Source: Tubulanus polymorphus (lineage: Eukaryota; Nemertea; Palaeonemertea; Tubulaniformes; Tubulanidae). From it: a DNA stretch of 64,000 nt. Below, piece after piece: positions 19,353 through 58,600 of this stretch. Under the pieces are notes generated by a model. The model searched no databases. It saw only the letters and a list, made by a program, of their open reading frames with translations, and was not told where the DNA came from. The stretch is taken from assembly GCF_964204645.1 (NCBI RefSeq), contig NC_134035.1:5332501-5396500 (forward strand). The letters are read 5' to 3'. Position numbers and translations under genes: made by a program. Position 1 is the stretch's first letter. Every line of letters starts with the position of its first letter.

Positions 19353-20331
19353 TCAACCGAAGTGACCATTTTTTCGAAGTTGATCGTTAAGTTTGCACAG
19401 CTGTTCTACGAAGCCGTCATTGGGATAGATTTCTCGACCTCGCCTGACGAGGCGAACAGCGTCTCGGATCTGAACGCGACGTTTGATCATCAGAAACGCT
19501 ATGACTAACGTCGCCGAGCGACTGACTCCTTCTCGACAATGAACGAGTAGTTTACCTGGAGAAAACAGATTTACAGTGGAACCTTCTGATAACCAACTCG
19601 AATAATATCACAGTTTTATCGCCAATTAAGACGAGTCTAAGCTTATGGTTCTATAACCAATCTTACAACTTAGGACTAGTCTAAGCTCATTTTGATTCTA
19701 TAGCCAATTTAACTACTTAAGACCAGTCTAACGATTTTAAGAATTCAAATTGAAGAAAATGTATTATACTACATGCTGCGTACCATTTTCTCGAAGGGCA
19801 TTTTCGATGAAATCAGCAGCTTCATAGAAATACTGTGACAAATCAAATGCCGTCGCGTCAATCGCTTCAAATCCAATGAATTCAATTCCTAGATTTTTAT
19901 ATAACGACGGCCCTGTACGAACGCAGTACGGTCCACGGCCGAGCGCTGCATTCATTATATGTGTTATCCCGATACATTTTAATTCACCGTGATTTCTCGC
20001 TATCGATCTGAAAATAAATATTTTAACCGGATTGTTCACACAGGTTTACTGATTGTAGGTTCACTACCGGCAACAGAAATAGTTTTCAACAAAAGGCTTT
20101 TCCAGTATTTCGAAAATATTTCCAGCATAAGTAAGATGTGAAGCATTGCCCTCACAATGCAGGAAATTAGAATACTCACTCCTCCCCTATGTAGACATCT
20201 TTATAAACCTCATCATACGCATTCGAAGGCAATAAAACGAGTCCTCCGGTATCAGCAGTTAAAATATCATGAACTTCGTCAATAGTGCAAGATGGTTCCG
20301 AACCCTCATCGTCATTAATGGAGGAAGCCAT
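19353..20331 (-). CDS. Dual-specificity phosphatase, DUSP3 (VHR)-like
   Basis: Three exons (20331-20180, 20007-19784, 19555-19353) join in frame to 192 aa; human DUSP3 is 185 aa. The catalytic signature is VHCREGVSRSATLVIAFLM, with Cys132 as nucleophile and Arg138 binding phosphate. The general acid is probably Asp101 in AIDATAFDL. The substrate-recognition stretch ITHIMNAALG and the C-terminal PNDGFVEQLCKLNDQL are also close to DUSP3/DUSP26/DUSP29. Such enzymes dephosphorylate phosphotyrosine and phosphothreonine, for example on MAP kinases. There is no MAPK-docking rhodanese domain and no signal peptide, so this is an atypical, probably cytosolic or nuclear DUSP. I cannot separate DUSP3 from its close paralogues without a tree, so no symbol is given. 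Confidence 0.93.
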
Positions 20332-21188
20332 CGCAACCGACCCTACAGAATTAGAAACAGTTCGCTCTGAATTCTGACCAACACTTCAAACCCACATATA
20401 GCGCATCATTACATCAAAATTCATCAAAATCGCTGATGTTAGCATGCATTTGACCATACAAATAAGCATTAGAATTTGGATTAAACTGATCCTCCAGAAT
20501 CAACAGAATTCGAGGTTGAACAGAGAAACTCGGCTACAATAACGATACCAGTACAAGTCAGTTTAATTGCTGTATTTAATGTATTTACATTACTATTTAC
20601 CAGTGATAAGTGTGTCACATATAACAACTAACAACCATCGGGTAGAGTACTTTCTATTTACTTAAACCTTACTACAAAACTATCGTATTGTAATCGTTGA
20701 CAAAGAAAATTCAAAACGGAATTCTTTTCTTTCATCTTTAGAATCAACATAAATATTCTCACGTTAAGAATACGAATTATTACGATTACGAAACTGAATC
20801 CTTTTTTTCTAATGATGAATAAATGCAACATCGGTTTCTACGATGAAAATGAACATGATCTTCGTTTTTTTTGCATATCGGATTCACTGCAAACGAATAA
20901 AATCACGCTAGTTAAAACGATCAAATGCATCCCTTCTACAATAGAATGCTTCTCTTCTTCAGACGTTAAATCAAACTTATATTGAAGTTAGTAAGGATCT
21001 TAAATGAAAGTGTAAATTTTGCGACTTCGACAGATGAACTCCAGTTACAACGATACGAACAAATAAATTATGAGCAACGAAATGTACAGAAGTGAAAACG
21101 CACAATTCAATTCATGACATCATAAACAGTTCAACGATCGCGAGTCTTTAATCCTACGTATACACGCACGTCCGAACGAACTCAATAA
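20332..21188. other. Spacer: 5' flank of the DUSP gene and 3' UTR of ZC3H11A
   Basis: This AT-rich stretch separates two minus-strand genes. It holds no gene I can support. On the minus strand, ATTAAA-type motifs near 20572-20590 could end the ZC3H11A transcript, but none is convincing. Confidence 0.45.
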
Positions 21189-24100
21189 CTACGCCAGCAT
21201 CTCTTCGATCTCGAGCAGGAAGTCGTCGTCGTTTTGATCGGTCGTCGGGATGAAATCGGTTTCCGCGTCGGAGCCGAGTAGAAGTTCGAGTTCGGCGTTC
21301 AACGTGTCGTCGATGCTCGTACGCTTTTTAAAGGACGGTTCTTCGTGACTGAAAAATAGAACAATTTAGATTTGGTAAATTCCTTCATTTCTGATCGATG
21401 CGGTATTGAGTAAGAGAGGTGACTGGAAGACTGATTATTAATCTCAGCATTTCAGAATTAATGAGCAAAACCCACAGTCGATGACTTGACAATTTATGTT
21501 CGAAGTTTTGACTAAATTTCACGTCAATGATGAAGTTAAGTCAAAACCTCAACACTGTTAGAATAAACCGTTAAATCATCAACTGTGGGTTTTGTTCATT
21601 TAGAGTAACAGTTGAATGCAGAATAAGAAATTAACTAACCACGCTTCAGCTTTCCTCTTCTTTCCGCTGCTCGAATCGTCTTTCTCCGGCACGCCGAGAT
21701 CGGGCGTCACTTTCTCAACCTTTCCATGCATCGTTGCTACGGAAACGGCTGATGCGCTTTGAAGTTCTGGAGAATTCTTGCTCGAACTCGGATTCAAATG
21801 AGCATCAGCTGAAAGTCGCGGAGCACCGGCTGATAGTCGCGTAGCATCGACTGATAGTCGCGTAGCATCGGCTGATAGTTGCGGACTAATGGATGTTAGT
21901 CGCTCACTAGCGGATGTTACGATATCTGGCAAGTCAGTACTAGTACTATTTTTCGAATGAACTCGAGTTTCTGTTTTCTGAGGTGATTTATCGGTAGTCC
22001 TACTCACGCTCATACGCTGCATAAAACTAGGTCGCACGACCTCTTTTTCCGCCGGTTTCCTAGCAACGTTCACATTCCGACCCTTAATAGCGGTGACAGT
22101 TTCCGCCGCTTTTACTGTCGCGTTAGTCCGTCTAGGAGGCGCCACGGGTCTAGGTGGCAGCACTGTGTCGTCGTCGCTATTCAAATCTAAATTATCGTCG
22201 TAATCGGATAAGTCGCTGTCGCTCGGTTTTACCGGATTCACAGTTGCTTTCGGTTTTTTAATTCTCGACGACCACGAGGACATCATACGACTCGTTGAAC
22301 TATCCCGCGGAACACCAAATGTATCTGCGGAAATAAAGCGTACAACGACATCCTTTTTAGCGACTGACCCATAACTAAATGGACAATGCACAATGTTTTC
22401 ACTCAGCGCAATTTCAACATATTTCCCTGACTTTTCCCTATTTTTTTTACTACATTGTATTTCACAAAAATTCCCCAACTATTCCCTGACTTTTTTTAAT
22501 GATAAGAAAATTCCTTAACTTTTCCCTTATCTCCAGGTATGTGGACACTGGTCAACAGTTCTGGTCAATAATTAAGATTAGTTAATTAATTACCTTTATC
22601 ATCTTGAAAGTCATCAAACATTGATGATGAATTCGGTTCGTTCTGTTCTTGTTGTTGTTTGAGTTTTTTCTCGGCCATTATTTGAGCGAATGATTTGATC
22701 TTGACGTCTTTGCGTCGCTCTGAATCGGTCGACGGTTTCGTGTCAGGTTTTTTCGGCGACCCGGCTCGCTGCGGTTCCGGTTCAACCGTCGGCTTATCGG
22801 TGGCGCGCTGGGGAAAATCATGATTCATTGCAAAAATGAAATTCAAATCGAACGAAAGAAGATTTTCGATATTTTTGAGAACGATATGCCTACCACGGGT
22901 TTTCCGAACAGCATGGCCGGCTTAGTAACAGCAGGTTTTTCAGCTTCTACAATTGAAGGACCGGGAATCAGGGCTTCTGAAATAATCGAATAAACAGAAT
23001 AAACATGCGCATGATCGGTAGATAAAATAAGATTTTTAAGACTTTCTAAGCAGGGGTCAGTTACTCAAAAGTTGTTAACCAGTGGATAGAGTTGACAAAA
23101 CTGACAATTAAAAGTCCTCTGTTACTTTTGTATTTATCTGCCACATATCTTTTACCAACTTATGAGTCCCTGGCCCCAGCAAATGTTCTTTCAAATCCTT
23201 TAGAATTTAACGCATACCTCCTTTACGGGAAGGTGGCACGTATAGACGAATAGGAGCTCGTTTGAGCAGACGTTTTTTCTCGGCTTGCTCGGCATCACTG
23301 ACAGCGGTAGAAACGCCGACTCGTTCTAGTTTCTGAGGCTGAGATTTTACCTTCTCATCGTCTGAAAATCAAAAAGAAGTTACTCACCGAAACTCATTCG
23401 CATTGACGAAATCTTAGGTTAGAGAAAGGAATGTAGATGAAATCATACTAACCTTTTTTATTCAACCCCTTGTCTGTCTTTATTTGTGCCAATGATTTGA
23501 TAACGATATTCTTCGCGTTTGGCGGTTCTGAAAATATGACATAAAAAATTTCGATTCAACTCAGTTTTAAAAGCCATTCATCAAGCGAAGTGAGAGCGCT
23601 GGAGAAAATGAGAGACAAACCTGTATTATCAGTGAGTTTTTTATCGACTACCGTCACTCTTCGTTTTAGTTTCAGTTGTTTTTCGACGTCTGCTCGTTTT
23701 TTCTCCGCAGCAGACGGATTTCTCGACGCGGCAACAGTCGCCACCTTCTCCAACTGTGCTTCCTCTGGTTGTGTTTGTTGTTGGTCTCGTTTGACGATGA
23801 TTCGACGTTGAATTTTCTGCAGGACATCGTCGTCGTCGTCGTCGTCATCAGCGGCGACAGACACCTCTTCCTTCATGGCAGCAGCGCGGCGCCAGCCTCG
23901 ACGGCGTTGAGGGGCGGTCGTTTTCGGAGGGTCTTTAATCGTTACGACGACAGTCGGTTCGGAACCATCGCTCTCAGCGACCTTGATTCAAATAGAATAT
24001 GAAAACAAATTCAAAACCCAGATACAAATGAAGCAGGAGCTCTGTCTAATAATCATCAAATCGCAGATTGACTCACATTAGATCGGGTCGTTTCATCAGC

Positions 24101-27100
24101 GAGATCCTTCTTAGTTTTTGTCTGAAATATGGAGAAAGTAAATTGGAATTTTTGTTCAAAACATGCGCCACATCTATTGCAGAGCATAGTGAAGCAGGTC
24201 ACCAAACAGACACACCATTGACAGAGTAGGGGAGACTGAGCCAAGTGACAAGTTTTTCCAGTTTTTTGTTGTCACTGTTTATCAACAACATTGTTGATAA
24301 ACAATGATAGCAAGCAAGTGGAGAGGGAGCGTTGTAGCTGTAGCATAATTTTATTTAGGGATCATTCATTTATTACGTACGCATAAAATTTGACCTTTTC
24401 TACTATTGCACTGACCCCTCCCCCATCCCCTGCGTACGTAATAAATGAATGATCCCTTACCAGAACAGATATTCAATACCTTTTTCGACTTTTTCGGTTT
24501 CTTAGGAGACTTCGTCGTTGACTTTGTTGGGTTAACGATTTCGTTAACGACTTGGTCAACCTCCTCAGCAGTATTCAAGTCTTCATGCTCCGTCGTCGAT
24601 GCGCTGTTTTCATCATTCTCTTCCTTTCCATTTTCATCATCTTCGTCGTCGCTACTACTGCTGCCGCTGTTACTATCGCTGTCTCCGCTCGTGCTTCCGC
24701 TGCTACTCGAGCTCCCGCTGCCTGAACTTCCACCTTCGTCGCTACTCGATTCCGCATCGGTTCCGCTCGCCGACGAGGACCCCGATCCGGACTGTGATCC
24801 AGATGAGGAAAGACCATCGGCGTTTTCCGTTTCCGATTCATTCTCGTCGCTCGGCGCGTCTGCTCGTCGAGGTACGACGACCTGATTCACGGATGACGAC
24901 ACTTTCGGGGCTATCCTCTTCGTAGCCGTTAGAACGCGTTTTTGAATATCGTTCACTTCGATTTTGCGACTGTTGCGATTTTTACGGCTCCGAATTTCGG
25001 CCAAACTTAATCCTTTCGGTTGAGCTTTGACAACCGCGACGTCGCCGGGCTTATGCTTTTTGCGACGAATATCAGCAATACTCATACCAACATTTTCTAT
25101 TTGCAGCGACGCTGGATTCTTCTTGTTCTTCTTGTTCCGAATTTCTGCCAAACTCAAAGATTTTACCGGATTCGTCTCGAGATTCTCTTTCTTCGATTTG
25201 CTACCGCGTTTCGCCGGTGACTTGACGACTGCTAAATTGATTACTCGATTTTTCTCAAGCGGTCCGTCGATCGCCGGTTTGATGCGTTCTTTCTGATTAG
25301 CCGCGGCGACGACTGCCTTCGATTTCTTCTCAGCAACAACTTTCGCATTTTTATCGACTTTCGTTGCTTCGGGTTCTGATAAATATGAGAACGAAATCAA
25401 TTTTGAACATATCAGTAATTCCTGGATATGGAGGGTTTTCAAGGAGGTTTAATTAAAGGGGAAAATTTCAAATTTCATGACCCAATTAGACTCCTTAATC
25501 GGTACTGTTTATCTCTGTAAACCGTTGATTCGGTGGTTTTGTAAGCACATTTTTGCCCTTGATACTGCTGAACTCGTTTTTTTTTTGGTAAATTCCTAAC
25601 TGGGTAAAAAATATCCTGGTCACAACACCACCGATTTAGGTGTAGTCTCACCAGAAATTTGCTTATTTCTCAAAAGTGAAGGAGTTTTGAAGGAGCTTCG
25701 GGCATTTTGCTCATAACAAAGGAGTTTCAAGCACCTTTAAAAGCAGAAATCGATTTCAAAACAAGCGAAATCCTTCCCGTGTAAAAAACTATTCAGCCTA
25801 CGATGCTTACCCTTTTTCGGAACGCCTAGTTTCTGATCCAAACGCTCTTTCATACTGAGTAGTGCTTTATGTCGGACGGCATTCTCTAAACTCATTACAT
25901 CACCGGCCTCTGTACAAAAGAATAATGCAATGACTAGATAGCATTGTGTCGTTTAAGGCAGAGAGGTCGGTTAAGGGTTTATTTTAATACACTTACCCAT
26001 TTCGATCAAAGCTTTTTCAATAGATTGTAATTTCTGTTCGAGTTGTTTTCGCTGCACAGGATCTGCAACCGAACATCAAATATTAATACACGAGTCGCGT
26101 TCTTCGCATTTATGAAATGCCTTCGGTTTAACTTACCGGTGACTATTTCTTCTTTAACAGCCGTTTCTGGTTGTTTCGTTTGAGGTTGTTCGGGGAGTGG
26201 TTTCGTCGCTATGTCCGGTCGACTGCGCGGGCGACCACCGCGTGGCGGACTTCGAAGAGGTCGCACTAAAATACATAAAAACATTTTGATCGAATCAAAT
26301 AATTCTCTGCGAGGGGGATTCTAACTATTTAAGTGCATCTACACGCAGTGCTGCGCATAAATCCGTGATGGACTTTCATATTACTGATGTAATTGGTGCT
26401 TGAAAGATAGCAACACCTATCAATCATAATTAAATATTAGTAACTTATAATACATCGCACTAAAGCAGTATGCCCGTTAAACAACACACTGGAGTGGATG
26501 TTTTTTTAATTTTCAAATTTATCAGCAATACTTTAGGGCATTAATTAGTCAGCAATGAAAGTATTAAGGGGATACCGTAATCAATACCTCTCGCGGGTGG
26601 GCGATCTCTAAAATCAGGAATCCGTAGAGGACTACGAGGACGATCTCTTCTGAACGGTGGTGAACGACTCCTGCGATATCGCGGCGGAGGTGAACATCCT
26701 CGTCTCATCGGACTGAACCGTCGATACGGCGGCGACCGTCGATACGGTGACCGCGATCTCGTCTGTCGTCGCTGCGGCGACCGCGACAAACTACGACTGA
26801 ACGACCGTCGCCGCGGCGACCATGAACGACTGCGATCGCGTCGATTGCGATTACGACCGACGGCGGCCGAATCTCGCGCGACCGGTTTCTCGATCGGCGC
26901 CTCCTCGGGTTCCGGCAGAAAATCCGGATCGACGTCGGCGTGAACGTCTAAAATATCGTGTTCTTCTTCAACATCATCAACCCATTGTTCTTTTTCTTCT
27001 GAAAAATGAAAAATATTCAATATTAATTTCAGAATTTTAAAGTCTTGATTTGTTGACAAATCACAGTGGATTCAACAGAAAACGATGATCACCTGCGACA

Positions 27101-32310: not shown

Positions 32311-32796
32311 ATCCTTCTATTTAATTAATTCACGATGGGCCACTTTTATTACATGGTTCTTCTGGTCGAAACTATTTGACTCGTTGGAAGCCAATCAGAA
32401 TCAAACCACCCTATATCTGCCCATAAAATTTCCCCCTTTCCTATTTATGATGTATTATTATTGACCGATTTATGATTTAAAAATAAAATTTCAAGAAAAT
32501 TAACGCATAAAATACTACAGAAAAAAAAACGTTTAAATTAAAAAATTAGCTTCTTTTTTTCTAAGTCAAATAGTCAATTTTTTGACTGGCCCCAAGTAAA
32601 AGAGACTTTAATTTTTGAGTTAAAGAAGATCGTAGGCTAGTTTTCATGTCATTCAACTAAGAAAATATCTTGAAAAATAATAAACTGGTCAGAACATTTT
32701 GGAGCCATCCTCCCTTATTGGGTGGCTCCAGGTGTAGTTGAAATGTTGATGTTGGATGCCTAAGGTTAATATATAATTCATTTTGTATTTAGAACA

Positions 32797-35700
32797 ATGG
32801 AATCAATGGATCCTGAAAAGACGACAATTTCTGCTGAACCGACTGAAGTCACAGCAGCGCCACCTATTGAACAAAACGAACCTGACAAATTAGAGAGTGC
32901 GTTGGCGGCCATATTCGAAGACAATGTCACGGTTTACGAGGCGGAGGCTTCATTCGGTATTTCGAAAAGCGTCATTTGCGATTGGATCGCCGGTAAATCG
33001 AAACTGTCGGAACCGGTTTTTACCGATGAGGAAGAAATGGCGGTGGTCGAAATCGTCGCGAACGGGCAATTAACGAGTCAACAGATAATACAGTCGGCTC
33101 AAACCAAGGCGACCGAGCTGTCAAAAATACAAACGCCCGGTTATCGGTGGTACGCCACGTTCGTCAATCGATGGCCCGAGTTGAATCTGACGAGACCGAA
33201 AATACGAGTCGTCGTCGACGACGATGGAGTTGAGCAGGTCGTCGAGGGTGATGACGATTCGGCGCTCGTCCCGTCGAATGTAATCGCGCAAGCGTTGATG
33301 GAATCAGGAATCATAGAGGAGGGAGCGTCGACGAGCGGACAAGTCGGCATGGACGCTGCCACCGCAGATGCGCAAACAGCGGAAGAGCAAACGGAACAGA
33401 TATATATAGTATCTGAGGCGACACCGGCGTTACCGACGGAAACGGATGCCGCGGCGACGACGGCTCAGCAACCACCCATCGAAGAGATTCCGGTCGTGGA
33501 ATCGGAGATCCAGGAGAGTGCAGAGAATCAGGGGACGGCAACTGTGGAAAATATCGAGATGACGCCCGTCGAGGCGCAGCAGTATATACAGCTTCCCGAC
33601 GGTACGTTCCAATTACCGGAGGGAGCCATCGAGGTACACGGCGACCAGGCGGTGTTAGTCACCGATCAGCAGCACGAATCTCACGTCAACATGGAGGGAA
33701 TCAATATAGAAGATTCCGTTCCAATTCATGTCGGTCCCGGTACGGATTTATCGCAGTTCGAGGACGGCACGGTGATAGTGGGAGAGGACAACGTCACATA
33801 TATCATCCGTCACGAGCAGGTGCCTGCGGAGACCGAACAGACTGCCGGAGTCGAGATGCCGATCGTTGAAATGCCAATGGAATCGACGCCAGGAATCGTC
33901 GAACCGAATGAATCGACGGTGATCATGACGACCGTAGATAAAGATCATAACGTCAGCATGGAGGGAATCGCTACGAATCAATCGGCAACGGGTCCCGTGA
34001 CGAATATACTGACGGCTACGGACAGCGACGGGGTGACGAAATTCGTTATCAAAATGGACGACACCGGTAACGCCGAGGACAACCAGTCATTCGCGTTACA
34101 GCAACTCGCCGACGCTGTTCTCGAGAATTACCCGACGACGGTGATCAGCTCTCCGTCGTCGTCGAAGATCGAGTCGTCTCGAATCGCGCCAACGATCGTA
34201 ACGCCGGCGCGCACGTTGAGCATGTCAACAACCGTCAGCGGGGCGGGCGCCGCGGTCGTCGTGGGTAAACCGAACATCCTGAAACGCGACGCGATGCCGC
34301 CGGCTCGCGTGGTCGCGTCGGCGCGCGTGGCGACCGTCACGCGTCCGGCGTATAAACCGGTTGCGCGTATGAACAAGAAGGGTTCCGGCGAGCCGTACGT
34401 GCCCGAACCGATACCGTGCGAAGACCCGCAGCCAACGCCCGGCACGCACATCTACGACCCGTTCACGATGGCGCAAGAACGCGCGCTCGTTCAGAAGATC
34501 GTGTCGCGTTGGAATCGTTTGAACATCACCGATCGCGACGTGTTGAACATGGGTAAAGATCTAGCGGTCGAGATGAACTTCGATCCGGAGAGTTTACCGA
34601 CGTGGAAATGGGTCGATAGTTTCATCGATCGTTGGCCGGAAATGATAATCATCGAACGAGTGCCGAAAGATCGTCGATACGTGCGGCCGCCTCCGCCGCA
34701 ACCTCGCGATCGCTCGACGCCGATAATGACGCCGGGCGTGCTGGCGCAGAAAGGTCGCGGGCGCGGTCGACCGACGTCAGCCGGCGGTCCGCAGACGAGC
34801 AAGAAGATATTCACCATGGAAGAGGAGAAACTGTTGACGAATATAATCAAAGCGATGCGCGAGGAAGGCCGCGTGACAATGAGCGATATTCTACGCGCCG
34901 CAGCCGAATTGGCGAAAGAGTTCAATCGACCGGCGCCGAGTCGCGATTGGTATTACCAGTTCGTCGCTCGCTGGCCAGAAATCGGTATGCCGATTTGTAA
35001 GAAATTCGGACTGTGCGACAATCGACGCAAATCGCAAGGGGGCAAAACGGTCGCCGCGACGAAAACCGACCCGAAAACTATGGAAACCGTGTTCGTGAAC
35101 GTTTCGAATAAACTTCAAATCGAACCGAATCAGGAATTGTTGGCCGACATTTCGTCGGACGGCTCACGTAAACGTAAACTCGAAGATCCCGATCTGTTCT
35201 CGCCAGATACGCCCGATTACGACGGCCCACCGATGAAAAGGGGTGTCGGCCGACCGAAGGGTTTCACTACAAAGAGGATGTCGCCAAGAGCTCCATCTCC
35301 ATGTGAGTATTACGACTATTACTTCACACTAATTGATTATTGAAAGTGAAGCTTTAGAATTGAAATACAATTTTGATCTGCTTTGATAAAAGTTCAGTAA
35401 TATTTCTTTGAAATTAAGCATGGTTCCCACAGTGCAGGCAAATTGGGAAATATTTGGGAATTAGAGAAATTTTTCTCTGACCAGAGAAATATTTGGGAAA
35501 TTCATTTTCCTGGTACTGTTCACTTTTGCGGAAATGGAAATATACAATCGAAATTTCGCGGAGTTTAGACTTGACAAATTTCTTAATCTTTGAAACAAAT
35601 GAACAACGATGCAGGGTATGTGAGGTTATTATACTTAAATTTTCAGCGGCCGCTAAACGTCGATGCGCGTGGAGAGACGAACAGCTGGTCGCTGCGGTGA

Positions 35701-38700
35701 ACGCGTTGATGGAAGGAGGACGAATGAAAGAGGTTTCGTTGCGTTTCTGTATCCCGCAATCGACGCTGTTCGATTACGCGCACGAACGCAAGAAATGTTT
35801 GTTCACGCCGAGTCAAGAAACGCAGATCGTGAAATTAGTGTCGGATAAATATAAAACGCAGGATAAGAGATTGACGGTTCAAAAGGTTTGTATTCGAAGA
35901 TAGAGAATCCCTACCACCACACCCCTGCTAAAAACTCTCTTAGATGTTCTCCTGTTCGAGGGATCTGCTTCTGGTTTACTCAGCAGTTGTAATTTAAGTA
36001 CAACTGGGTGGCCGCTTAGCTGACAAAAGTTAGTGAAATTTCTTTACTTAAAAAAAGTCAGGGAATTTGATTTTTAAAAAAGCTCTAAGTCAGGGAAATT
36101 TATTAAAATCAAACAGTTTCCATGTATATCTTCGTATTTGACTGTGTTTATTGATTGGAAAACATGTCCAGGAATTATCCAAAAAAAGTACATCAAATAA
36201 ATGTGGCCACCCTGTCTAAAAACATTGTTTCTTCGGTGGTAAGAACAAAAAAACTGGACTTAAATCTAAATCATAACTCGGTCATCGGTAGGAGGCCAAA
36301 CTAGCGATTCACGTTGAGTTATCGTTTGTTTAATTCCAGGTTTGCGAGCTGGCGTCCACAGTCGGCGAGACCAAGTTCAAAATCGGTCCGCTCTGGTATA
36401 AAAACTTCGCCAAACGAAACGAGGAGGTGAAAAACTACGTGGAAGAAGACGCGCTGGCGAGTGAGGAAGAGGCGGAGAAACGCAAGACGAAAGAGGAGAA
36501 TAATTTTGAATCGGGCGCGGAAGAGGAAGAAGATGATGACGAAGATATGGAAGTTCCGGCTGATGAGGATGGTAAATAGATTTGATTTTTTGAATCACCT
36601 GTCTAACTCCAAGAACAGTTTACGATTCATCAGTTTTACCAATTTGGATAGTAGAAATGTGTCCTGTTTAAGAGATTATATGCGATTATTAACTTGCATC
36701 ATATTTAAGATCAGATAAACATTTCAACAAATACCCGATTATCTCCTTTTAGCGGTGTCTACCATTAAAGCTAATTTTCAACTGTTTTAGGGTCACCTGT
36801 AAACGGTGTATTGTGTATATTTTCAGCTGATAGCGATGATAACGGAGAAATGGATGAAGACTTCCAGTACACTCCCAGACGTAACGCGCGCGGCGCCGGT
36901 AAGAGGAGTATCAAACCTAACAGGGCTTACGGCGACGATTTCATATCAGCTTTATCTACTCCTATCGGACGTAAGTACAATCATTGAAATGGACTGAAAA
37001 TTATTGAATTTTAAGTATGGACCGATTTATGGACCGAGTTTGATTCGTCATAGAGAAATTTGACTTATCGTTTTTGGAATTTATCATTTTCGACAGGAAA
37101 AAATTCGAAAAGCTCCGACGATACTCCCGTCAAAAAACAACATGCCGTCAAAGAGGAGAAAGGTGAAAAATCGGCGACTGATGCTGATCGAAGCGGTAGT
37201 CCCAGTAAGTTCAGATGCACCGCACCTAGAGCGTCCTCTATTGCCGCAGTAGCATTCGCGGTTCCCGTGCACGTTCTACCTTTTACTAGTGAACACATAC
37301 GAACCAAAACTAAAATAGCAGTTAGATTCGAATTCATTGATGAATGAAAACCAAAAAAAAACAATGATTTTCAGGTTTTTGGAAGCGCACGACGTGGACC
37401 CCGTCGAACATGTTGAAAGCGATGGCCGCCGTCGAGAAGCATAAAATGCTGCGGTCGGAGGTGTCGAAAAAATACGGCATCCCGACGTCGACGCTGGGAG
37501 ATTACCTCGAGGGACGGTCGAGTCGGCAGAAACTTCACGACGCCGTGAACAGCTCGAAGAAATCCGGCAAAAAAAGAGATGCCAAACCGAAAGGTAGGTA
37601 ACGAAATTCATGTTGTAATGGTGTTAGTGTAGTGTATAAATGGTTCCATGAAATGTGTTCACTAGTTGAGGTAGATCATTGCTCTGTTAATGGTTCCATG
37701 AAATGTGTTCACAAGTTGCTGTTGATAATTATCGCAGTCATTGAAATTACCAGACCTAGTTCCACAGTTCTGAATATTCCATTTATCGCAACTGATTTTC
37801 GTTGAAACTTATGATTTTTGGGTCGCTGCGGTTAGGATTTGCCCATTGGAACTAGGTTCAAATTAGTGTGCGTAATATCTTGTCGAAAGATGTAAATTGA
37901 TTTACAATAGGAATTAAATTGAAAAAAGGGCTGCATTTGAATGATCTGAGTTTTGAATTTAAATGGACTAATGTGCCAGATTTTCACTCTTGTATCCCAA
38001 ATACTTGGTTCACATTGTAACGCAGTAGTGCGGTGTTCTGGATTTCAGAAGAAAAGAAATGGAAGGACGCCGATTTACAAAAGGCAGAAGACGCCGTGAA
38101 GTTCGATTCAGTACCGCTGAAAGAGGCAGCGAACAAATATTCAGTACCGCTGTCTGTACTTTATGAACGAGTTTCTGGAAAACAGTTGTTTAGTGTGGCT
38201 GAAGAGAGAGAAGTGAGTACCGTGTACTGTAGTCATAGAAATTAATCAATTTAACCCATACTCAATCAGCAGCCATTTTAACTCGAAATCAATGGTTCAA
38301 TAATCCCCTGGGATGAGATTAGTCCAAAAATGATCTTAACTCTTGGGTTGTTAGATACAGAATTCTATGAGCTATGGTCTATAGAGCTAAGTTGGTCATA
38401 GACTATTCTTAGGTCTTAGCCATGACAATGGAACCAACCCCTGGGCTCAGTTTATAGTTGATACTTGCGTCCAAAAATCAGGATCGCAGTCCATTTGTTC
38501 ACTACAGGAAAATTACTTTCAATCCCGATTTCCCGCGAACCGGATGGATTTTATTGGTCTCAGATGATCCGAATTTTGCGGAATCTACGGGGTATAAATG
38601 AATAACGATGTAACGTTTGTCGATTCAGGTTTGCCGATCGATTAAAGAACTGAAAGAACAACTGAAACGCAAAGTCTCCATCGACGAAGTGCTCATGTTC

Positions 38701-41700
38701 GCGCAGGAATTCTGGGAAAAACTCGGCAAGGAGGAATTCAAATTCGACGTGTATTGGCTGAAGCCGTTCATACGACGTACGAAAATGGAGAACCTCGTCG
38801 ATCTGGCCAGCACGAGCGTTGACGATATGGAATCGGAAACGGAGGAAAATGAAGCCGACGATGATGATAACGAGGAAGCGGGCGTCGACGATTTGGAGGA
38901 CGAAGGAACCGCCGACGAATCGCCGAAGAAATCTAAAACTAGTGAGTTATATATGCCGAATGAGGTGGAGGGGATGACCGATTTCATGAAACCAAAAAAT
39001 GATCAAGAATCTTGACAAGCAAAACAGGGAGGCCACTTATCTGCCAATCGGGGAAAATTCTTCTTATTTCTAAAAGAAATAGAAGCTAAAAATCTTGGAA
39101 AGGAGACTGCTAGATCACGCGTATAATAAAACAGTTTCTAAGTTTGACATATTTGACTGGATTCTTAGCAGATCAAGTCCGGGAAAACAACGCATATGTC
39201 AGTCAGGAAATAGTCGGGGGAAAAGATTTGATATGATATCGTTAATTAACAATATTTCCTGTTTAAAATGAACACGAAATGAATTGTTTTTTCAGAGCCT
39301 GTCGGTTATACGGCCGTCGATATCGAGGACGCTTTGAAACTCGTCAAGAAAGGAACGTCGGTGAAACAGGCCGCCGCCAAATACGGAATACCGCACGACG
39401 TACTGGACGACTACAACACCGGTAAAATCAAACGAGTATTCGAATTCAAAGAGGAAAAACAGATCGTACACGGATTGGAAGATCTTCACTCGGAATGCGT
39501 TACGTTAACGAAACAGGACGTGTTCCTCGTCGCGTATAAAGTCGCCGATAAACTCGGTAAAGACGTCACGTTGAACCGAGAGTGGTACGACACGTTGATA
39601 CAAGGCTGGCCGAAACTCGCCGACATCATAGAGGACGAAGAAGACGAAAACGACGAATTCACGATGACCGAAGAGGACGATTTGCCGTCGACGCCGGTGA
39701 AGAAAACCGTCAAGAAAGAGGAGGCCGACGGCGATGACGATGCGGATAAGAAGGATGCCTCGGCGACATCGCACGTCGGTAAAGGAAAGCTAGTCGATAG
39801 TAAGGGGAAGAAAGTCGAACCGAAATCGAGCGCCAAAAAACAGCAGAAAGAAGAAAATAGCGGCGATAAAAAAGAGGCGGATAAGGATGAGACGAAGGAT
39901 GTTTCGTTGGAAGGTCGGAATGAGAAGGAGGTAAAAGACGGCGGCGGCGATAAGGAGGTGAAGGATAGCGAGGAAAGCGTGGTCGGCGATGGTAAAGAAG
40001 GTGAAGATGAAAACAAAGTGGTGAAAGTAGAAGAAACCGAGGAAGGAAATTCTGAAGAAAATGGTGAGTTTTATATATATTGATTATTTAGTAAATTGCA
40101 TCATGAGACTTACAGATTGAACCTGAATTGACATTTTTTCCTCCAGTCGCGAACGAAAAAGAAACTGATTCCACCGCTGCCGATGCTGATGCTGCTGCTG
40201 CTGCTGCAGCTGCAGGTGCGAATGAAAAACAAGATGAAAGTATGGAAGTGGAAGAAGAATTTTCGAATGATGAATTCTTGAAGTCTCTACCGGAGCCACC
40301 ACCTCCAGAGGAAGAGGAAGAGGAAGAGGAAGAGACTACGACTACTATTCCTATGTATTACGAGCTGCCTGTACCAGAGGCACCCGGTATGTAAACAGTG
40401 TAACTTCAAATACCTTTCTCAAACTTCACAGCTCAGATTTTCACAAACCATGAACCCTCTAACTTTAATGGGGGTGGCCAATTGTCTTGAAAACCTGCGA
40501 AACTCAGGAAATCGATGAATGAAAAATGAATAGAGTGTAATATTATTCTAAACCTAGATATTTCTCTGATTCACTCTGGGAATTTGTGTAATCACATGGA
40601 AAATTTTGGGAAAACTCGGGCGATTTGTAAACGGGCGGAAAGTGGCGCCACCCTGATATTGATCACTTCTATAAATTCTGTATCTTGACGCTCTATTTTG
40701 ACTGATGTTTGAAAATGTTTAATTGAAATGCAGTTGTGGCGAGAGCCTCGTGGACGAACGTCGACGTCGCTCAGGCTCTGAAACTCGTCGACGCCGGCAT
40801 GACGATGAAAAATGCCGCCGCACAATTCCACATTCCGTTAGCGACGCTTCACGATCGACATTCCCAACGTCTGCGCGCCGGACTCACCAAAGCGGAAGAG
40901 GTGACCATCGTCAAATCAATCGAAAGGCTTTATCAAGAACTCAAACGAAAGGTTAGTTACGCGAGCCCTCAACGAGCAGAGCGACACTTGGATCGATGAG
41001 AGACTACTCGGCTACTAGTCCTTCAAATAACTTCTAAATCACCCCCCTCCCCTTCCTCTTCTCTAATATAATTAATTAAAACATCATACAAGTTTTTATT
41101 TGTCGTCCTATTAATTTTACAGGTTAGTTTGGCCGAAGTGTTGTATTTGTCTAAAGAGTTGGCGGCGAAATTCGGCAAGAAAGATCAGTTGAATATTCAG
41201 TGGTTCACGGTATTTGCAAAGAAATATCCGCAACTGAAGCCACTCGTTCGTAAAGACCGTAGCAAAGAGAAAACGGCTGAAAGCGTTCAAACTAAGGCAG
41301 CCGGTGAAACGGATGAGATGAGTCTTAGTCCTTCAGGTTCGTTCGATAACTATTATGCCCATTGTCCTGGACCTAGTTAGCTATTCAATTTCATCTGAAT
41401 TTGTTAGTTTTTGAAGTGATGATAGGTACATAATCAGGGTTGCCACTTACCTGGAAATCAGGGAAATTTCTTTTTGAAAAAGTCGGCATTCTGTAAAACA
41501 AAAAAAACCTAAAAATCAGGGAAATATGTTAAGATGCCAGATGCGCGTAAAATCAAACAGTTTCTGTCAATGTCTTACGTATTTGACTGTGTTAACTGAT
41601 CGGATTCTTCACAGATCAAGTCAGGTGAAATAACATACATGTCAGCGAGTAGTCGGGAAAAAGCAAGTCAAATTAAAGTGGTGGCCCTGTTTATGGCTGA

Positions 41701-43728
41701 GAGTCTATATTTCTTGAGGTGGACCATAACTTAGCGATGAGCTAAGTTCTTGACCTTTTATGTCGACGAGGATTTTATTTCCAATGATTAAACCTTGAAG
41801 ATTATCCACTTGTCCAGATATTTAGTAAATGGTCTATATAAATTTACATATTAATGTTTAGTATTTTATTGTAGTGCGTAACTTAAGTGGAGCTGATCGT
41901 CTGACGGTTGCTATCGACGCCGTACGCAGCGGACAGATGAATCTGGGCGAAGCGGCGCGTTATTACGGCGTGGCGCGTACGTCTCTACAGGATGGCGTCG
42001 GTAAATCGACCCACACTCCGACCACCAGCCACGCGGCCATTAAAACTCTATACAAGAAAATCGACGACGTCTTCAACAAAACGGAAGAGGAAATATTCGT
42101 GAAAGCCCTCGGCGGAATCAGCGGACTCGATCGTAAACTGCGTTATGCCGAGGTGTGCGACATCGCGCAGACTCTCGCGCTGGCGTTGCGCCGCGAGTTA
42201 ACGCCGCCCGAGAAGTGGTTAGCCGGATTGTTGGCGCGGTGGCCGGAGATGAAAGACATCGTCGACACGGACGTTTTAAACGTCGGTTTCGTCGCGACCG
42301 ACTGTATCCCGATACAGATGATCGCCGACAGCATCGCCGAGGATATACGTAATTATCATCGTATGGTCGAAGAGGCGAAGCTGGAACTGGCGGCGACGAC
42401 GTCGACGATGATGGGAGAGAAAGCGACGGCGAAAAAACCGGCATTGTTGAGAACGGCTGCGACTAGTGCATTGAAGAAAGGTCAGTTTCACATCAACATA
42501 GTCTTTCTGCACCTTCTCAGATATTAGACATTTTGTCAGATATTCTTCCAGTTGCTGGTTGTCCACATTTAACATACGTTCAACACTTCACCTGAGATAT
42601 TTTTAATCGAAAATGAACTATAAAACCAGACAGACATTTTATCAGCACACTTTCAAAAACTCGTCCACACTCCACGTGCATTCAGTGGTTCGCATGAAAC
42701 ATTTTTCGTTGAAAATGAACTACAAAGATTAGCGATTCAACCCCTTAATAACTTCTTTACTTGTCCCTAGCCACTAGTCCTCAGAAAATGTCTCCGTAGA
42801 ACTTGACCTGAGACATTTTCAATTGTTCTACAAACTCCATACAGATATTTTATCGGCACCCTATTCATCAGTCCAATTGTGTATTTAATGTTATATGTAT
42901 TAATTTCGTGCAGGTTTCACACAGAAGGAAGAATATGAATTCGTAATCGCTCTTCAAGAACTCGATCAGAACGATCAGCTGGTCACGTTGAACACGGTAA
43001 TGACCGCCGCGCTCGGATTGGCCCGTTCCCTGAAACGAGACAAAACGTTCATCAATCAAAAATGGCTGCTCGACTTCGCCAAACGTTGGCCGTCGATTCA
43101 AGAGATGGTTTTCAAGAGTCAGGATAAATTACAAGCGCAGAAGAAAGGCAACGAAGACGAGACGGTCCCGCAGCAGCAGCAGCAGGAAACCGCCGAGATG
43201 GTCTCCATCCCGACGACGTCGAGCGCCGGCGAACAGGTAACGATAATCGACGCGAGCGGAAACGAGGTTCCCGTTATAACGACCGAGCAGACGATCGTCG
43301 AACAACAGCCGCAAATTCTGCATCAAGTCCTCGAAAATCAGGAGATACCGACGACGATCGTGACGTCGGAACAGCAGATCATCAATTTACAACCCGGCGA
43401 CGACGGTCAACAACTCGTTCAACAATCGGCCGACGGCAATTTCGCCGACTTTGAAGGAATGCAGGTCGTGATGACGACGAGCGGCGACGCAGCGATGACG
43501 TCGGCCGACGGCGGCGACGTGACAACGCAAACGATCTACGTGTCGGCCGACTCGCTGTCGATGCTCGGTCAGGACGTCGACATCTCGCAGGCGATCACCG
43601 AGGGACAGATGCTCAGCGACGGTCAGATTCTTCTCACCGGTCAAGACGCCGACGGAAACCCGATCATACTGACGACGTCTGCCGCTGCGTTAGAGGGCGC
43701 CGGCGAGGTCGCCGTCAAGATGGAGTAA
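32797..43728 (+). CDS. Multi-module Psq/CENP-B-type DNA-binding protein (2261 aa)
   Basis: Fourteen coding exons join in one open frame: 32797-35302, 35647-35885, 36340-36571, 36827-36970, 37097-37204, 37375-37593, 38049-38212, 38629-38941, 39296-40063, 40147-40386, 40734-40951, 41123-41336, 41875-42480, 42914-43728. The protein repeats a bipartite unit. The first half is a Psq-type helix-turn-helix (AAAKYGIPHDVLDDYNTGK-like). The second is a CENP-B/Tc5-type half ending W...F..RWPE. Units lie near residues 31-130, 556-615, 672-730, 836-955, 1077-1130, 1150-1245, 1309-1415, 1645-1745, 1789-1910 and 1991-2045. Units 2, 3 and 10 lack the first half and unit 5 lacks the second. AT-hook-like GRGRGRPT (~653-660) and GVGRPKG (~816-822), acidic linkers and a Gln/Thr-rich tail (~2046-2261) add to a regulator profile. 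No DDE transposase follows. I do not recognise a named orthologue. Confidence 0.85.
36004..36214. mobile_element. CAGGGTGGCCAC-family MITE, copy 1
   Basis: The ends CTGGGTGGCCGCTTA and ATGTGGCCACCCTG are inverted. The interior includes TCAGGGAAATTTATTAAAATC and GTATTTGACTGTG, shared with the copy at 41435-41689. It lies in intron 2 of the multi-Psq gene. Confidence 0.7.
37636..37712. repeat. Imperfect ~53 bp duplication
   Basis: AATGGTTCCATGAAATGTGT followed by TCAC and AGTTG occurs twice, at about 37638 and 37690. It lies in intron 6 of the multi-Psq gene. Confidence 0.6.
39025..39225. mobile_element. CAGGGTGGCCAC-family MITE, truncated copy
   Basis: It starts CAGGGAGGCCACTTATCTG and shares ACAGTTTCTAAG, CATATTTGACTG and GCAGATCAAGTC with the complete copy at 41435. 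The right terminus is missing. It lies in intron 8 of the multi-Psq gene. Confidence 0.6.
41435..41689. mobile_element. CAGGGTGGCCAC-family MITE, complete copy
   Basis: A 255 bp element with left end CAGGGTTGCCACTT and right end AAGTGGTGGCCCTG. It has no coding capacity. It lies in intron 12 of the multi-Psq gene. CAGGG termini suggest hAT or a related superfamily, but no target duplication is clear. Confidence 0.75.
42575..42855. repeat. Dispersed GAAAATGAACTA repeat, copy 1
   Basis: Three internal units each hold ACCTGAGA(T/C)ATTTT, GAAAATGAACTA and AGACATTTTATC-type blocks. The same blocks recur at 58365-58515. It is in intron 13 of the multi-Psq gene. Confidence 0.6.
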
Positions 43729-44814: not shown

Positions 44815-44995
44815 GGCCCCTCCTCACTATAGTGTGAGCTACTCACTGTCGCTATAGTGTGGACACCCTCACTATAGTGTGGGCTCCTACTCACTATCGA
44901 TATAGTATGGGCTACTCACTATGGAGTGGGCTCCTTCTCACTATCGCTTTAGTGTGGGCTACTCACTATGGAGTGGGCTCCTACTTGCTATAGAT
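44815..44995. repeat. Minisatellite of CACTATAGTGTGGGCT units
   Basis: Palindromic CACTATAGTG cores joined by GGGCTACTCACTAT and GGGCTCCTACTCACTATCG repeat about seven times. Confidence 0.85.
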
Positions 44996-45788
44996 CAATG
45001 GTGTTCAGATATTTTGTATTTAAATATAATATGATTATAACCGGAAATGGAAATGTAATTAATAAACATATTTTTAATTAAACTCGAAGTCATGTGTTCT
45101 GTTGTAGTTATTTTTCTGCTGTGTGGGATGTTTGTGGGTGGTGAGTATTCAGTAGCCTTGGATTCTACAGTGGGTCTGACAGTTTCGTCGACACCGTCGT
45201 CGATAGAGGAGAAATGCTGACTCAAATTTTATGAGCCACGTAGATGGAAAGTTTAACCCTGCTTCCATGTGCAAAATGGTGCAATTTCCTGCATTTTAGA
45301 ACTAATTTTGATAAGAGTAAGTTAGTAGATTAATGCAAGTGTACACAACTCTGAAGCCGGATACGGCATTTTTCGGTTAAAACCTTTTTACTCGAAACAC
45401 TTACTTTACATTTTACTTAAGTTTACACCACACTAGATCCGCCCACTAGTTGCGTGTACACTCATGCATGGCGTGGACGCTGGAGAAATACTGACAGTTT
45501 CGTGACGTGTTGAGTGTGTTTGGGCCGTTTTGTGTTCGCTCATGTGTGACGGTTCCACAAAACTGCGTGTAGGGTTGACGGAATGGTGGTATTTCTCTTG
45601 TTCCAGCAAGCTTGTCTGGTATGAGCGAGTGCTAAACGGCCAGTATTTCATGGTTACAAAACAAAACACTAACTGATCGCATTTCGATATACATGTATGT
45701 ATTTCACGTAAAGGAATCTGATTATAACAAGTCATCAATGATAAAATGATTTATAAATCTAATCAACTTTTACGCGCGTATTATACCA

Positions 45789-55666: not shown

Positions 55667-58600
55667 TCAAAACACTCCCTCCAAATCAGCCGGCGGCGAC
55701 TTTTTCTTCTTCTTCTTCGACGCCGAAGTTTGCGGAGTCGCCAGCGAAGTCAAACGCGCCGGTTTACGAATCGGTAAATCTTCGAGCGTGTTAATCTGTC
55801 CATGTACGTGCGCCGCTCGCAGCTTCTCGTTCGACATTGAACCATTGTGTTCGCCGCCATTGGCAACGGTGCCGTTTTGTTGCCACGATAACGCAGTACG
55901 ACTGCCGTTCATGTTGAAATTTGACGGTGGTGGCCCGGCACCAGCTGATAGAGTCTCACCTGAAATATAAACAGCAGAAAAAGTTATTAATCAATTCAAA
56001 ATAAGTGATGAATTTCATAAATCAATATGATTTTAAATTATGAAGACATAATAAATCAAAATCAACTTCAATATGACCCTCTCATATAAATACGGGTAGA
56101 AATTGCAAAATCAAATGATATGAAATCTAGTTAGATCTTTGATGACTACATAAATAGATAGAGTTCAACACGATTATTTCTATTCGTACAATTAACGCCA
56201 GTTCTTGTTGTCAGACACTTTCAATGCGATTCACATTTGTCTAAATTTCTAAACTACATGTACAAAGGATTGTGTTCTTGTAAAATTCAACAGTTTCCAC
56301 AATTCAAATTTTCTAAATACTCATAAATTTTGTGGGTAGCATCGTTAATAACAAACCACGAGTTCCGTATTGTTGGGTGAGAATTTGATTCGAACGGCGA
56401 CTCTGGAAATAGTTGGTAGCGACGTCGTCGTTTTTCTGACTGAGTATCTACAAACGAACAGACAGAATTTCTAAGTAAAGCATTTAGGTGGTGCTAATCC
56501 AAATCAAAAAGGATTTTATTCGGGGGGGCAATTGTCCTGGGGGCAATTGAACATATTGAATTACCACAGCTTACTAAAAATCACTGAGTCCGAATTCTTA
56601 CAAGCCGGGGAGCTGCAGTTGCTCAAAAGTTGGTTAGAGTTAACCATTGGATAGTTGACATAGTGACAATTAAAACGGCATTGTAACCATGGTACTAATC
56701 CGCAGGTTATGTTTAACCAACTTTTTAGTAGCAGCTGCAGCCCCTGAATGTGTGTTTTACGTACCATACGATAACGATCATTTTCATGATACTCTCCGTT
56801 CTGTTTCAGACGTTTATCATTTGTTCGTCCGCCGGGCACCGGCATCCCTGATAAGAGTAATCAAATAAAACTAGTTAATGATAAACAAATAGGTTTTGAG
56901 ATTCGATCTGAAACGTCCATCAGTGGACTAGACTTGCTTTTTCCCAGACTATTCACTGACATGCGCGTAGTTTTCCCTGACTTGATCGACAGGCGCGGAT
57001 CCAAATTTTTAATCGTTTTCTTGAAGGAATGTACTCAAGACAAAGCGGGCGAACAGTACTACATAATCGGTACCATATCATCTTATGTTTGGCCAAACAA
57101 TTAGCCGTATAGGCCCCCTAACAGAGATTTTAGTCGGCAGTTTAACATTTACATTCTTTATGAACTCCTCCTGGAAAAAATCCTGGATCCTGGATCCTGA
57201 TCTGCTAAAAATCCAATCCATCAATTAACACAGTCAAATATGTACGTACAACATAGATGGAAACTGTTTGATTTTAGCAATCTCGACAAATTTACTTTGA
57301 AAAAATTCCTTTGCTTTGAAAATTCCTTGACTTTTCCCTGATTTCCAATAAACCGGTAAATGACCACCCCATTATTTTTCAACAAATTAACTGATATAAT
57401 TTCACTGACCTGTTGGTAAAGCTGTTTTCTCGACGATCAACTGTGGCACGCGCCATCGTTCATTCTCCTCGTCCCAGACGCACTCTGTTTTCACGCGATC
57501 CAGGTTGCTATAGTTACAATCTCGACGGATGCACGGATGAATTTTATCGATGATCGATTGTAATAACTTGATCTGTTTGTCTTGTCGACGAATCGAGTCA
57601 AGGTAGTCGATTCGATCGAATTCGAATTCCGATTGTAAATCGACGATTTCTCGACGTAAAGATTCCGTCTGCCAAAAACACATAATATTCTCAGATTAAC
57701 TTCGTGTAACAGAACTATCTTAAAACTGGTATCAAGATTTTAGATTGGTTATAGAACTAGAATCCGCTTAGCCTTAAAAAGAAGTCTTCATTACTCGAGA
57801 AACCAATGACTCGTACCCTTTGTTTTTCTTTATCGAGAAGTTTATTTTTGATTTTAAGCTCGTCTTGAATAGAGTCGAATATTCCTTCCATAATACCGTC
57901 GTCTTCTAGATGACTATTGGCCGCTGAAAAAACCATAACAAACATCATCATCGTTGTCAGAGTTTAAACTGAAGAAGGCACTGAGCAAAATGATTCATTG
58001 AGAAAGTATTGAAAATTTCAGAAAGCTTTGTGGAGATTCCAGGGAAATTCGCTTCCGTGTAACAAGCCTTTAATGGAATAAATCATTATATAAAACTCAA
58101 GCGATTACAGTAAACCGGTTACAAGAATGGTCAGTATTTACCGGCTAGTTTGATTTTGCGCTCTTCAGCGTGTTTGCGTTTAACTCTGCGACGTTCTTTC
58201 ACTTCCAGATTGTTCGCCGCTTCTCCACCAACCATTTGACTCTGAAGTTCTTGCAGTCTACAAACAATTACAGTTTACAGTTCAAATGACAGTGACCTTC
58301 ATATTACCAACTCGGATATAAAGATTGAGATATTCATTCTTCCAAGTTTTGATCGTCCACACTTTGCCTGTGTCCAGGACATCGACTGAGACATTTCTAA
58401 TTGAAAATGAACTACGAACACCAGACTAGACATTTTATCGGCACGCTTTCGAAGCTAAACATTCACACTTCAGATATCGTTTCAATCGAAAATGAACTAA
58501 AAACAACACCAGACATTAGACATTTCAAGAAGGGACCAAAATCTCTACAACAAAAGTGAAATTTGAAATTGGAATCTTTCATGGTGTGGTAGGTATGTGA

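Follow-up and report, generated by a model that had tools for sequence, protein, structure and literature searches.

The window analysed here, a 64,000-nt stretch of the Tubulanus polymorphus genome (contig C11, positions 5332501-5396500), contains a 14-exon open frame in which modules composed of Psq-type and CENP-B/Tc5-type helix-turn-helix (HTH) halves recur ten times. On balance, we favour the view that a domesticated pogo-type DNA-binding domain was amplified within one gene, giving rise to a multivalent factor acting on chromatin or transcription, whose modules are joined by disordered, acidic linkers and followed by a Gln-rich tail. What stands out about the array, and gives it moderate to good interest, is its copy number together with the alternation of two HTH types. 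The observation itself was confirmed, but the interpretation that came with it in the initial annotation was supported only in part, as described below.

A 14-exon frame with ten recurrent modules

Joining the 14 exons at their best splice sites yielded 6786 nt that are open throughout, without an internal stop, and all 13 introns have GT-AG borders. The continuous frame of 2261 aa proposed in the initial annotation was thus reproduced exactly (Table 1). GC content is 43-55% in the exons, as opposed to 29-41% in the introns. An in-frame stop lies ten codons 5' of the ATG, and the ATG is immediately preceded by TTTAG (TTTAGAACAATG), which suggests that the gene is likely to have an upstream 5' untranslated exon. 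Based upon frame, splice sites and intron phase, we infer that all 14 exons belong to one transcript. As expected for an animal gene, no relatives of exon 1 were found in bacterial or archaeal contigs, and none of M9 in viral contigs.

Table 1. Gene model and features, numbered from the first nucleotide of the window.
Feature	Position	Strand	Evidence
Whole coding region, 14 exons, 2261 aa	32797..43728	+	GT-AG junctions, one frame, GC contrast
Exons 1-5	32797-35302, 35647-35885, 36340-36571, 36827-36970, 37097-37204	+	
Exons 6-10	37375-37593, 38049-38212, 38629-38941, 39296-40063, 40147-40386	+	
Exons 11-14	40734-40951, 41123-41336, 41875-42480, 42914-43728	+	
M1, complete, acidic, pI 4.5	32875..33195	+	leave-one-out profile
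M2, CENPB half without a Psq partner, acidic, pI 4.6	34456..34656	+	profile; predicted three-helix fold
M3, CENPB half only	34801..34995	+	Pfam HTH_Tnp_Tc5; predicted fold
KGRGRGRPTS (near aa 654) and RGVGRPKG (near aa 818), both AT-hook-like	34750..35265	+	pattern match only
M4, complete, basic, pI 9.5, phase-0 intron inside	35658..36441 (35658-35885 + 36340-36441)	+	profile
M5, Psq half without a CENPB partner, basic, pI 10.3	37377..37535	+	Pfam HTH_psq
M6, complete, phase-0 intron inside; first codon split with 37593	37593..38799 (38049-38212 + 38629-38799)	+	profile; Pfam near cut-off
M7, complete, single exon; first codon split with 38941	39296..39630	+	Pfam HTH_psq; AlphaFold2; structure matches
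M8, complete, basic, pI 10.0, phase-0 intron inside	40736..41248 (40736-40951 + 41123-41248)	+	profile
M9, complete, longer Psq-CENPB spacer, basic, pI 9.1	41877..42263	+	Pfam HTH_psq
M10, CENPB half only	42914..43110	+	leave-one-out 43.6 bits vs shuffle maximum 12.0
C-terminal tail of 205 aa, rich in Gln and Thr, net charge -27, resembling a disordered activation region	43111..43725	+	composition

The ten modules cut from the protein (M1-M10) comprise 16 halves, 9 of the CENPB and 7 of the Psq type. Complete Psq+CENPB modules are M1, M4, M6, M7, M8 and M9, and in all six the HTH_psq half precedes the HTH_Tnp_Tc5 half; M2, M3 and M10 consist of a CENPB half alone, and M5 of a Psq half alone. 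Each half was tested, together with up to 1000 shuffles, against a profile built from the other halves only. The real halves scored 12.7-49 bits and the best shuffles 5.2-15.9 bits, and 16 of 16 halves outscored every one of their own shuffles. Scanned over the whole protein, the two half-profiles recovered exactly 9 CENPB and 7 Psq halves, with no further hidden halves. The half-profiles and shuffles therefore bear out the ten recurrences, six complete and four partial, that had originally been counted. M1 ends in RWPELNLTRPK, similar to the RHPxLxLRxPE of psq-type transposases. The RWPE ending ascribed to every module is exact in M1, M2, M3 and M9, but not in the remaining modules. Trp positions and the hydrophobic core are conserved across all CENPB halves, and the recognition-helix positions vary strongly from module to module.

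The Pfam search suggested in the initial annotation placed only some of the modules above the curated cut-offs: M5 (23.7 bits), M7 (27.3) and M9 (35.4) for HTH_psq (cut-off 20.4), and M3 (23.9, in exon context) for HTH_Tnp_Tc5 (cut-off 22.2). The others scored below the cut-offs or gave no match. M6 fell slightly short of both (HTH_Tnp_Tc5 21.7, HTH_psq 17.8 bits), and M4 and M10, searched by themselves, matched nothing. For these modules, Pfam is less sensitive than the gene's own half-profiles. Weak Pfam matches to DUF1150, Colicin, S100 and the like were judged to be chance.

Predicted fold of the modules

An AlphaFold2 model of M7, built from an alignment of the window's own modules, has a mean pLDDT of 93.7 and consists of two three-helix bundles. 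In a Foldseek search with this model, the CENP-B-DNA complex (1hlv) ranked first (probability 0.99, E 0.017). VIA-align superimposed M7 residues 46-105 on CENP-B residues 72-131 with a Z of 8.5 (59 residues at 1.9 A), well clear of the next row (Z 6.0); for residues 1-45, the match was the Psq HTH of LCoR, with a Z of 5.8 and 31% identity. M7 is thus predicted to have the bipartite fold of CENP-B residues 1-129, but its two halves are placed differently relative to each other, and the rmsd to 1hlv over the whole is 9.2. A model of M2-M3 was good for M3 (Z 8.0 to 1hlv) and moderate for M2, which is predicted to adopt a three-helix fold. Hence the modelled repeats are predicted to form three-helix, HTH-type bundles, as had been claimed.

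Helical folds can reach middling Z scores by chance. We accept the CENP-B and LCoR matches despite this caution because sequence and structure agree. A PDB profile search combining the modules with psq transposons of the same genome returned the LCoR Psq domain (1.6e-6), CENP-B 1hlv (0.014, with both halves covered) and CG11849 (0.016), which we take to be Dan. The whole protein alone gave no match in the PDB, and the CENPB-half profile alone gave chance matches only. Together, profiles, predicted fold and the trees described below bear out the identification of the modules as bipartite Psq/CENP-B-type HTH domains.

Charge of the modules, linkers and tail

The modules differ widely in charge. 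M4, M5, M8 and M9 are basic (pI 9.1-10.3), M3, M6 and M10 mildly basic (pI 8.0-8.3), M7 slightly acidic (pI 6.3), and M1 and M2 acidic (pI 4.5 and 4.6). Two related transposon modules carry a charge of +11 each, with a pI of 10; M1 and M2 aside, several modules of the gene are near neutral, and modules other than these two keep little of the positive charge seen in related transposases. DNA binding is plausible for M4, M5, M8 and M9, but the acidic M1 and M2 indicate that not all ten look like the DNA-binding modules first envisaged. The protein as a whole has a pI of 4.76, and linker charge reaches -48 before M2, -19 before M5, -18 before M7 and -46 before M8. Judged by composition, the linkers appear to be disordered and mostly acidic.

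Origin of the array

Several observations support the idea that the array arose through duplication within the gene. In the genome searched (268 Mb in 77 contigs), the gene and its C-terminal tail are single-copy, M3 matches this gene only, and the best matches of M7 and M8, after themselves, are other modules of the same gene. Trees that also included a handful of transposons, all from this one genome, placed the nine CENPB halves together in a single group apart from the transposons (support 98/97) and likewise united the six whole modules (90/91); the CENPB halves of M4-M10 are split from those of M1-M3 (83/82). The tree of Psq halves (51 columns) did not yield a resolved single group, and the Psq halves may therefore be of mixed origin.

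Intron phase points in the same direction. M4, M5, M6, M7, M8, M9 and M10 are each preceded by an intron only a few residues away from where the module begins, and all seven introns are in phase 1, which would occur by chance with a probability of about 2e-4 to 6e-4 (assuming a background of 0.30-0.35). This fits duplication of symmetrical phase-1 exons. M4, M6 and M8 are also interrupted internally, each by a phase-0 intron. We considered these internal introns as a mark of homologous duplication and rejected them; because their positions differ among the three modules, they add nothing to the argument. The CENPB-half tree, the module tree and the phase-1 edges thus uphold the proposed expansion of one DNA-binding domain inside the gene. 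No transposon found in the genome qualifies as a direct parent, as the modules group together and the transposons match M7 and M8 with much lower scores than those of the best module-module matches.

Relation to transposons and host proteins

The initial annotation had reported no transposase at the locus, and a whole-genome search for DDE_1 likewise found none there; among the matches listed, the only one on the same contig lies at 4897352, more than 400 kb away. The genome nevertheless holds many psq/DDE_1 elements, including intact-looking 740-aa frames with HTH_psq and DDE_1, as well as elements with HTH_psq and HTH_Tnp_Tc5. This pair of motifs is found in Fot and Fot-like pogo transposases (PMC7386202, a pogo survey). 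Given the Psq/Tc5 layout and the lack of DDE_1 in the locus, the modules would fit a Fot-like DNA-binding region after loss of the catalytic part. A host gene that merely shares an ancestor with a Fot-like transposase appears less likely. Domestication of a transposon DNA-binding domain is thus the more likely reading, and the closest described source is the Fot/Fot-like branch of pogo transposases, rather than the CENP-B, jerky or Tigger also named in the initial annotation.

Fot/Fot-like transposases (HTH_psq + HTH_Tnp_Tc5 + DDE_1) share the order of the two HTH halves with the modules, and in M1 the second half still has an RxPxLxLxxP-like end. Unlike these transposons, which have one module copy, the gene has six complete and four half modules, no DDE domain, long, apparently disordered linkers and a tail, several exons and a single genomic copy. 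CENP-B, CENPBD1, JRK, TIGD and POGZ/POGK, likewise host genes from a pogo-type element, resemble M7 in the predicted fold of the second, CENPB half (Z 8.5 to 1hlv). In the exons scanned with Pfam, there was no match to the DDE-derived middle or the C-terminal dimerisation domain of CENP-B. The domesticated pogo genes of vertebrates mostly go back to complete transposases and still have the DDE domain, with one DNA-binding region (PMC7386202), whereas here there are many modules and no DDE.

The Psq family factors (Pipsqueak, Bric-a-brac, Dan/Danr, E93/Mblk-1 and LCoR) use the Psq HTH as a DNA-binding unit, as is probable here. Drosophila Pipsqueak has four tandem Psq copies and E93-type proteins have two, whereas the Psq halves here alternate with CENPB halves to give 16 HTH units in total. 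Pipsqueak proper (BTB-Psq) also has an N-terminal BTB/POZ domain, for which a Pfam scan of ten exon frames (all except four small exons) gave no match. The consulted text of one study (PMC10027918) describes many transposon-derived Psq/CENPB genes, some of them expanded in a lineage-specific way, among molluscs and other animals, and no tandem array of this kind. In open-access literature text more broadly, no described protein with a tandem Psq/CENPB array was found, in agreement with the earlier statement that no named protein is known to have this architecture; the module count appears to exceed that of any such protein described there.

Alternative explanations

It is conceivable, though unlikely, that most modules have lost DNA binding and now act as helical protein-interaction or dimerisation units, leaving one to three basic ones (e.g. 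M8, M9, M5) to bind, so that the protein would be an ordinary factor with a large scaffold. The pI values of M1 and M2 (4.5-4.6) and of M7 (6.3), a module charge far under that of related transposon modules, the strong differences at recognition-helix positions and the three CENPB halves without a Psq partner would all be consistent with this. However, every CENPB half keeps its hydrophobic core and Trp positions, and four modules remain strongly basic. We consider it improbable that the model merges at least two adjacent genes, for example a single-exon M1-M3 gene and an M4-M10 gene. Taken alone, exon 1 does amount to an open frame of 857 codons that closes with a separate stop (35341-35343), and the M4-M10 CENPB halves stand apart from M1-M3 in the tree (83/82). 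Yet exon 1 ends in a good donor (CAT/GTGAGT) that joins a phase-1 acceptor in frame right before M4, just as at all the other module edges, and nothing ahead of M4 was identified as a start codon, 5' end or gene boundary.

That decayed or nested transposons have accumulated by chance into something resembling a gene is disfavoured and seems very improbable. While the genome is rich in psq/DDE_1 elements, the tail and modules are single-copy, 2261 codons run without a stop and with consistent splice sites and phases, the modules resemble one another more closely than they do any of the transposons found, and the locus lacks DDE. The frame, the modules, their predicted fold, the common origin of the CENPB halves, the absence of DDE and the single-copy state instead argue that the locus is probably one host gene, not a transposon.

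A possible role for the array

If the locus is a host gene, repeated intragenic duplication of a Fot/Fot-like Psq HTH plus CENPB/Tc5 HTH would have produced a probably nuclear protein of ~2260 aa, from which the catalytic domain of the ancestral pogo-superfamily transposase is absent. By analogy with known factors, a subset of modules may contact DNA within a multivalent DNA- or chromatin-binding factor: M4, M5, M8 and M9, and perhaps M6 and M7, would bind in the CENP-B/Psq manner, with the Psq recognition helix making contact first and the CENPB half second. The long, mostly acidic linkers, predicted to be disordered, could allow several modules to occupy clustered or repeated sites simultaneously. 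The acidic M1 and M2 may have drifted toward protein contacts, and the acidic Gln-rich tail might recruit transcription or chromatin partners. As a working model, the protein would resemble a Pipsqueak or Dan with more modules, using avidity on repeated motifs and bridging chromatin. In Dan, deletion of the Psq domain abolishes DNA binding, and the disordered remainder is needed for self-association (PMC11178893); a similar Psq requirement for DNA binding may apply here.

Domesticated transposase DNA-binding domains usually occur in one copy, and here there are six full and four half modules. Tentatively, and with some doubt, the gene could represent a class of animal nuclear proteins not described before, made by tenfold amplification of the bipartite domain of a transposase within one gene and able, as a poly-HTH protein, to read long or repeated stretches of DNA. 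If so, its logic would be comparable to that of poly-zinc-finger proteins, and the array, if real, would be a natural, zinc-finger-like use of a transposon domain for multivalent DNA recognition. The related modules, ranging from strongly basic to acidic, would also offer a testable set for the gain and loss of DNA binding.

Directly 5' of the start codon of the ten-module gene lies TTTAG (window 32780-32797), which suggests a 5' untranslated exon further upstream. Downstream, the three copies of a 47-nt tandem repeat are 100, 87 and 70% alike. SLAEIRxxK motifs recur in the low-complexity pieces, which, named by eye from their sequence, perhaps belong to a ZC3H11A-type protein. The piece at 19398-19535 (-) has, also by eye, a likeness to dual-specificity phosphatases. 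A separate set of pieces looks, again by eye, like kinesin-2.

Features in the window and at loci elsewhere in the same T. polymorphus genome (G000; C2 and C8, contigs)
Feature	Position	Strand	Remark
Low-complexity exon-like pieces, Ser/Arg- and Lys-rich	window 19398-26999	-	named by eye
Tandem repeat, 47-nt unit x3	window 44868-45008		downstream of ten-module gene
Exon-like pieces, kinesin-2 (KIF3-type) motor and tail look	window 55673-63659	-	named by eye
L058 frame with two Psq domains	G000:C2:555500-559500, locus-internal 1317-3068	-	584 aa
L055, HTH_psq + DDE_1 element	G000:C8:7359600-7363400

Elsewhere in the genome, HTH_psq matches the L058 frame with 99.3 bits, in two stretches, and its product, judged by sequence, is probably an E93/Mblk-1 relative. 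L055 and seven similar places give about eight equal-scoring matches, and most hold a stop-free frame of ~740 aa with HTH_psq and DDE_1. Together, the equal scores and mostly stop-free frames suggest that these copies represent a pogo-type transposon that was active recently.
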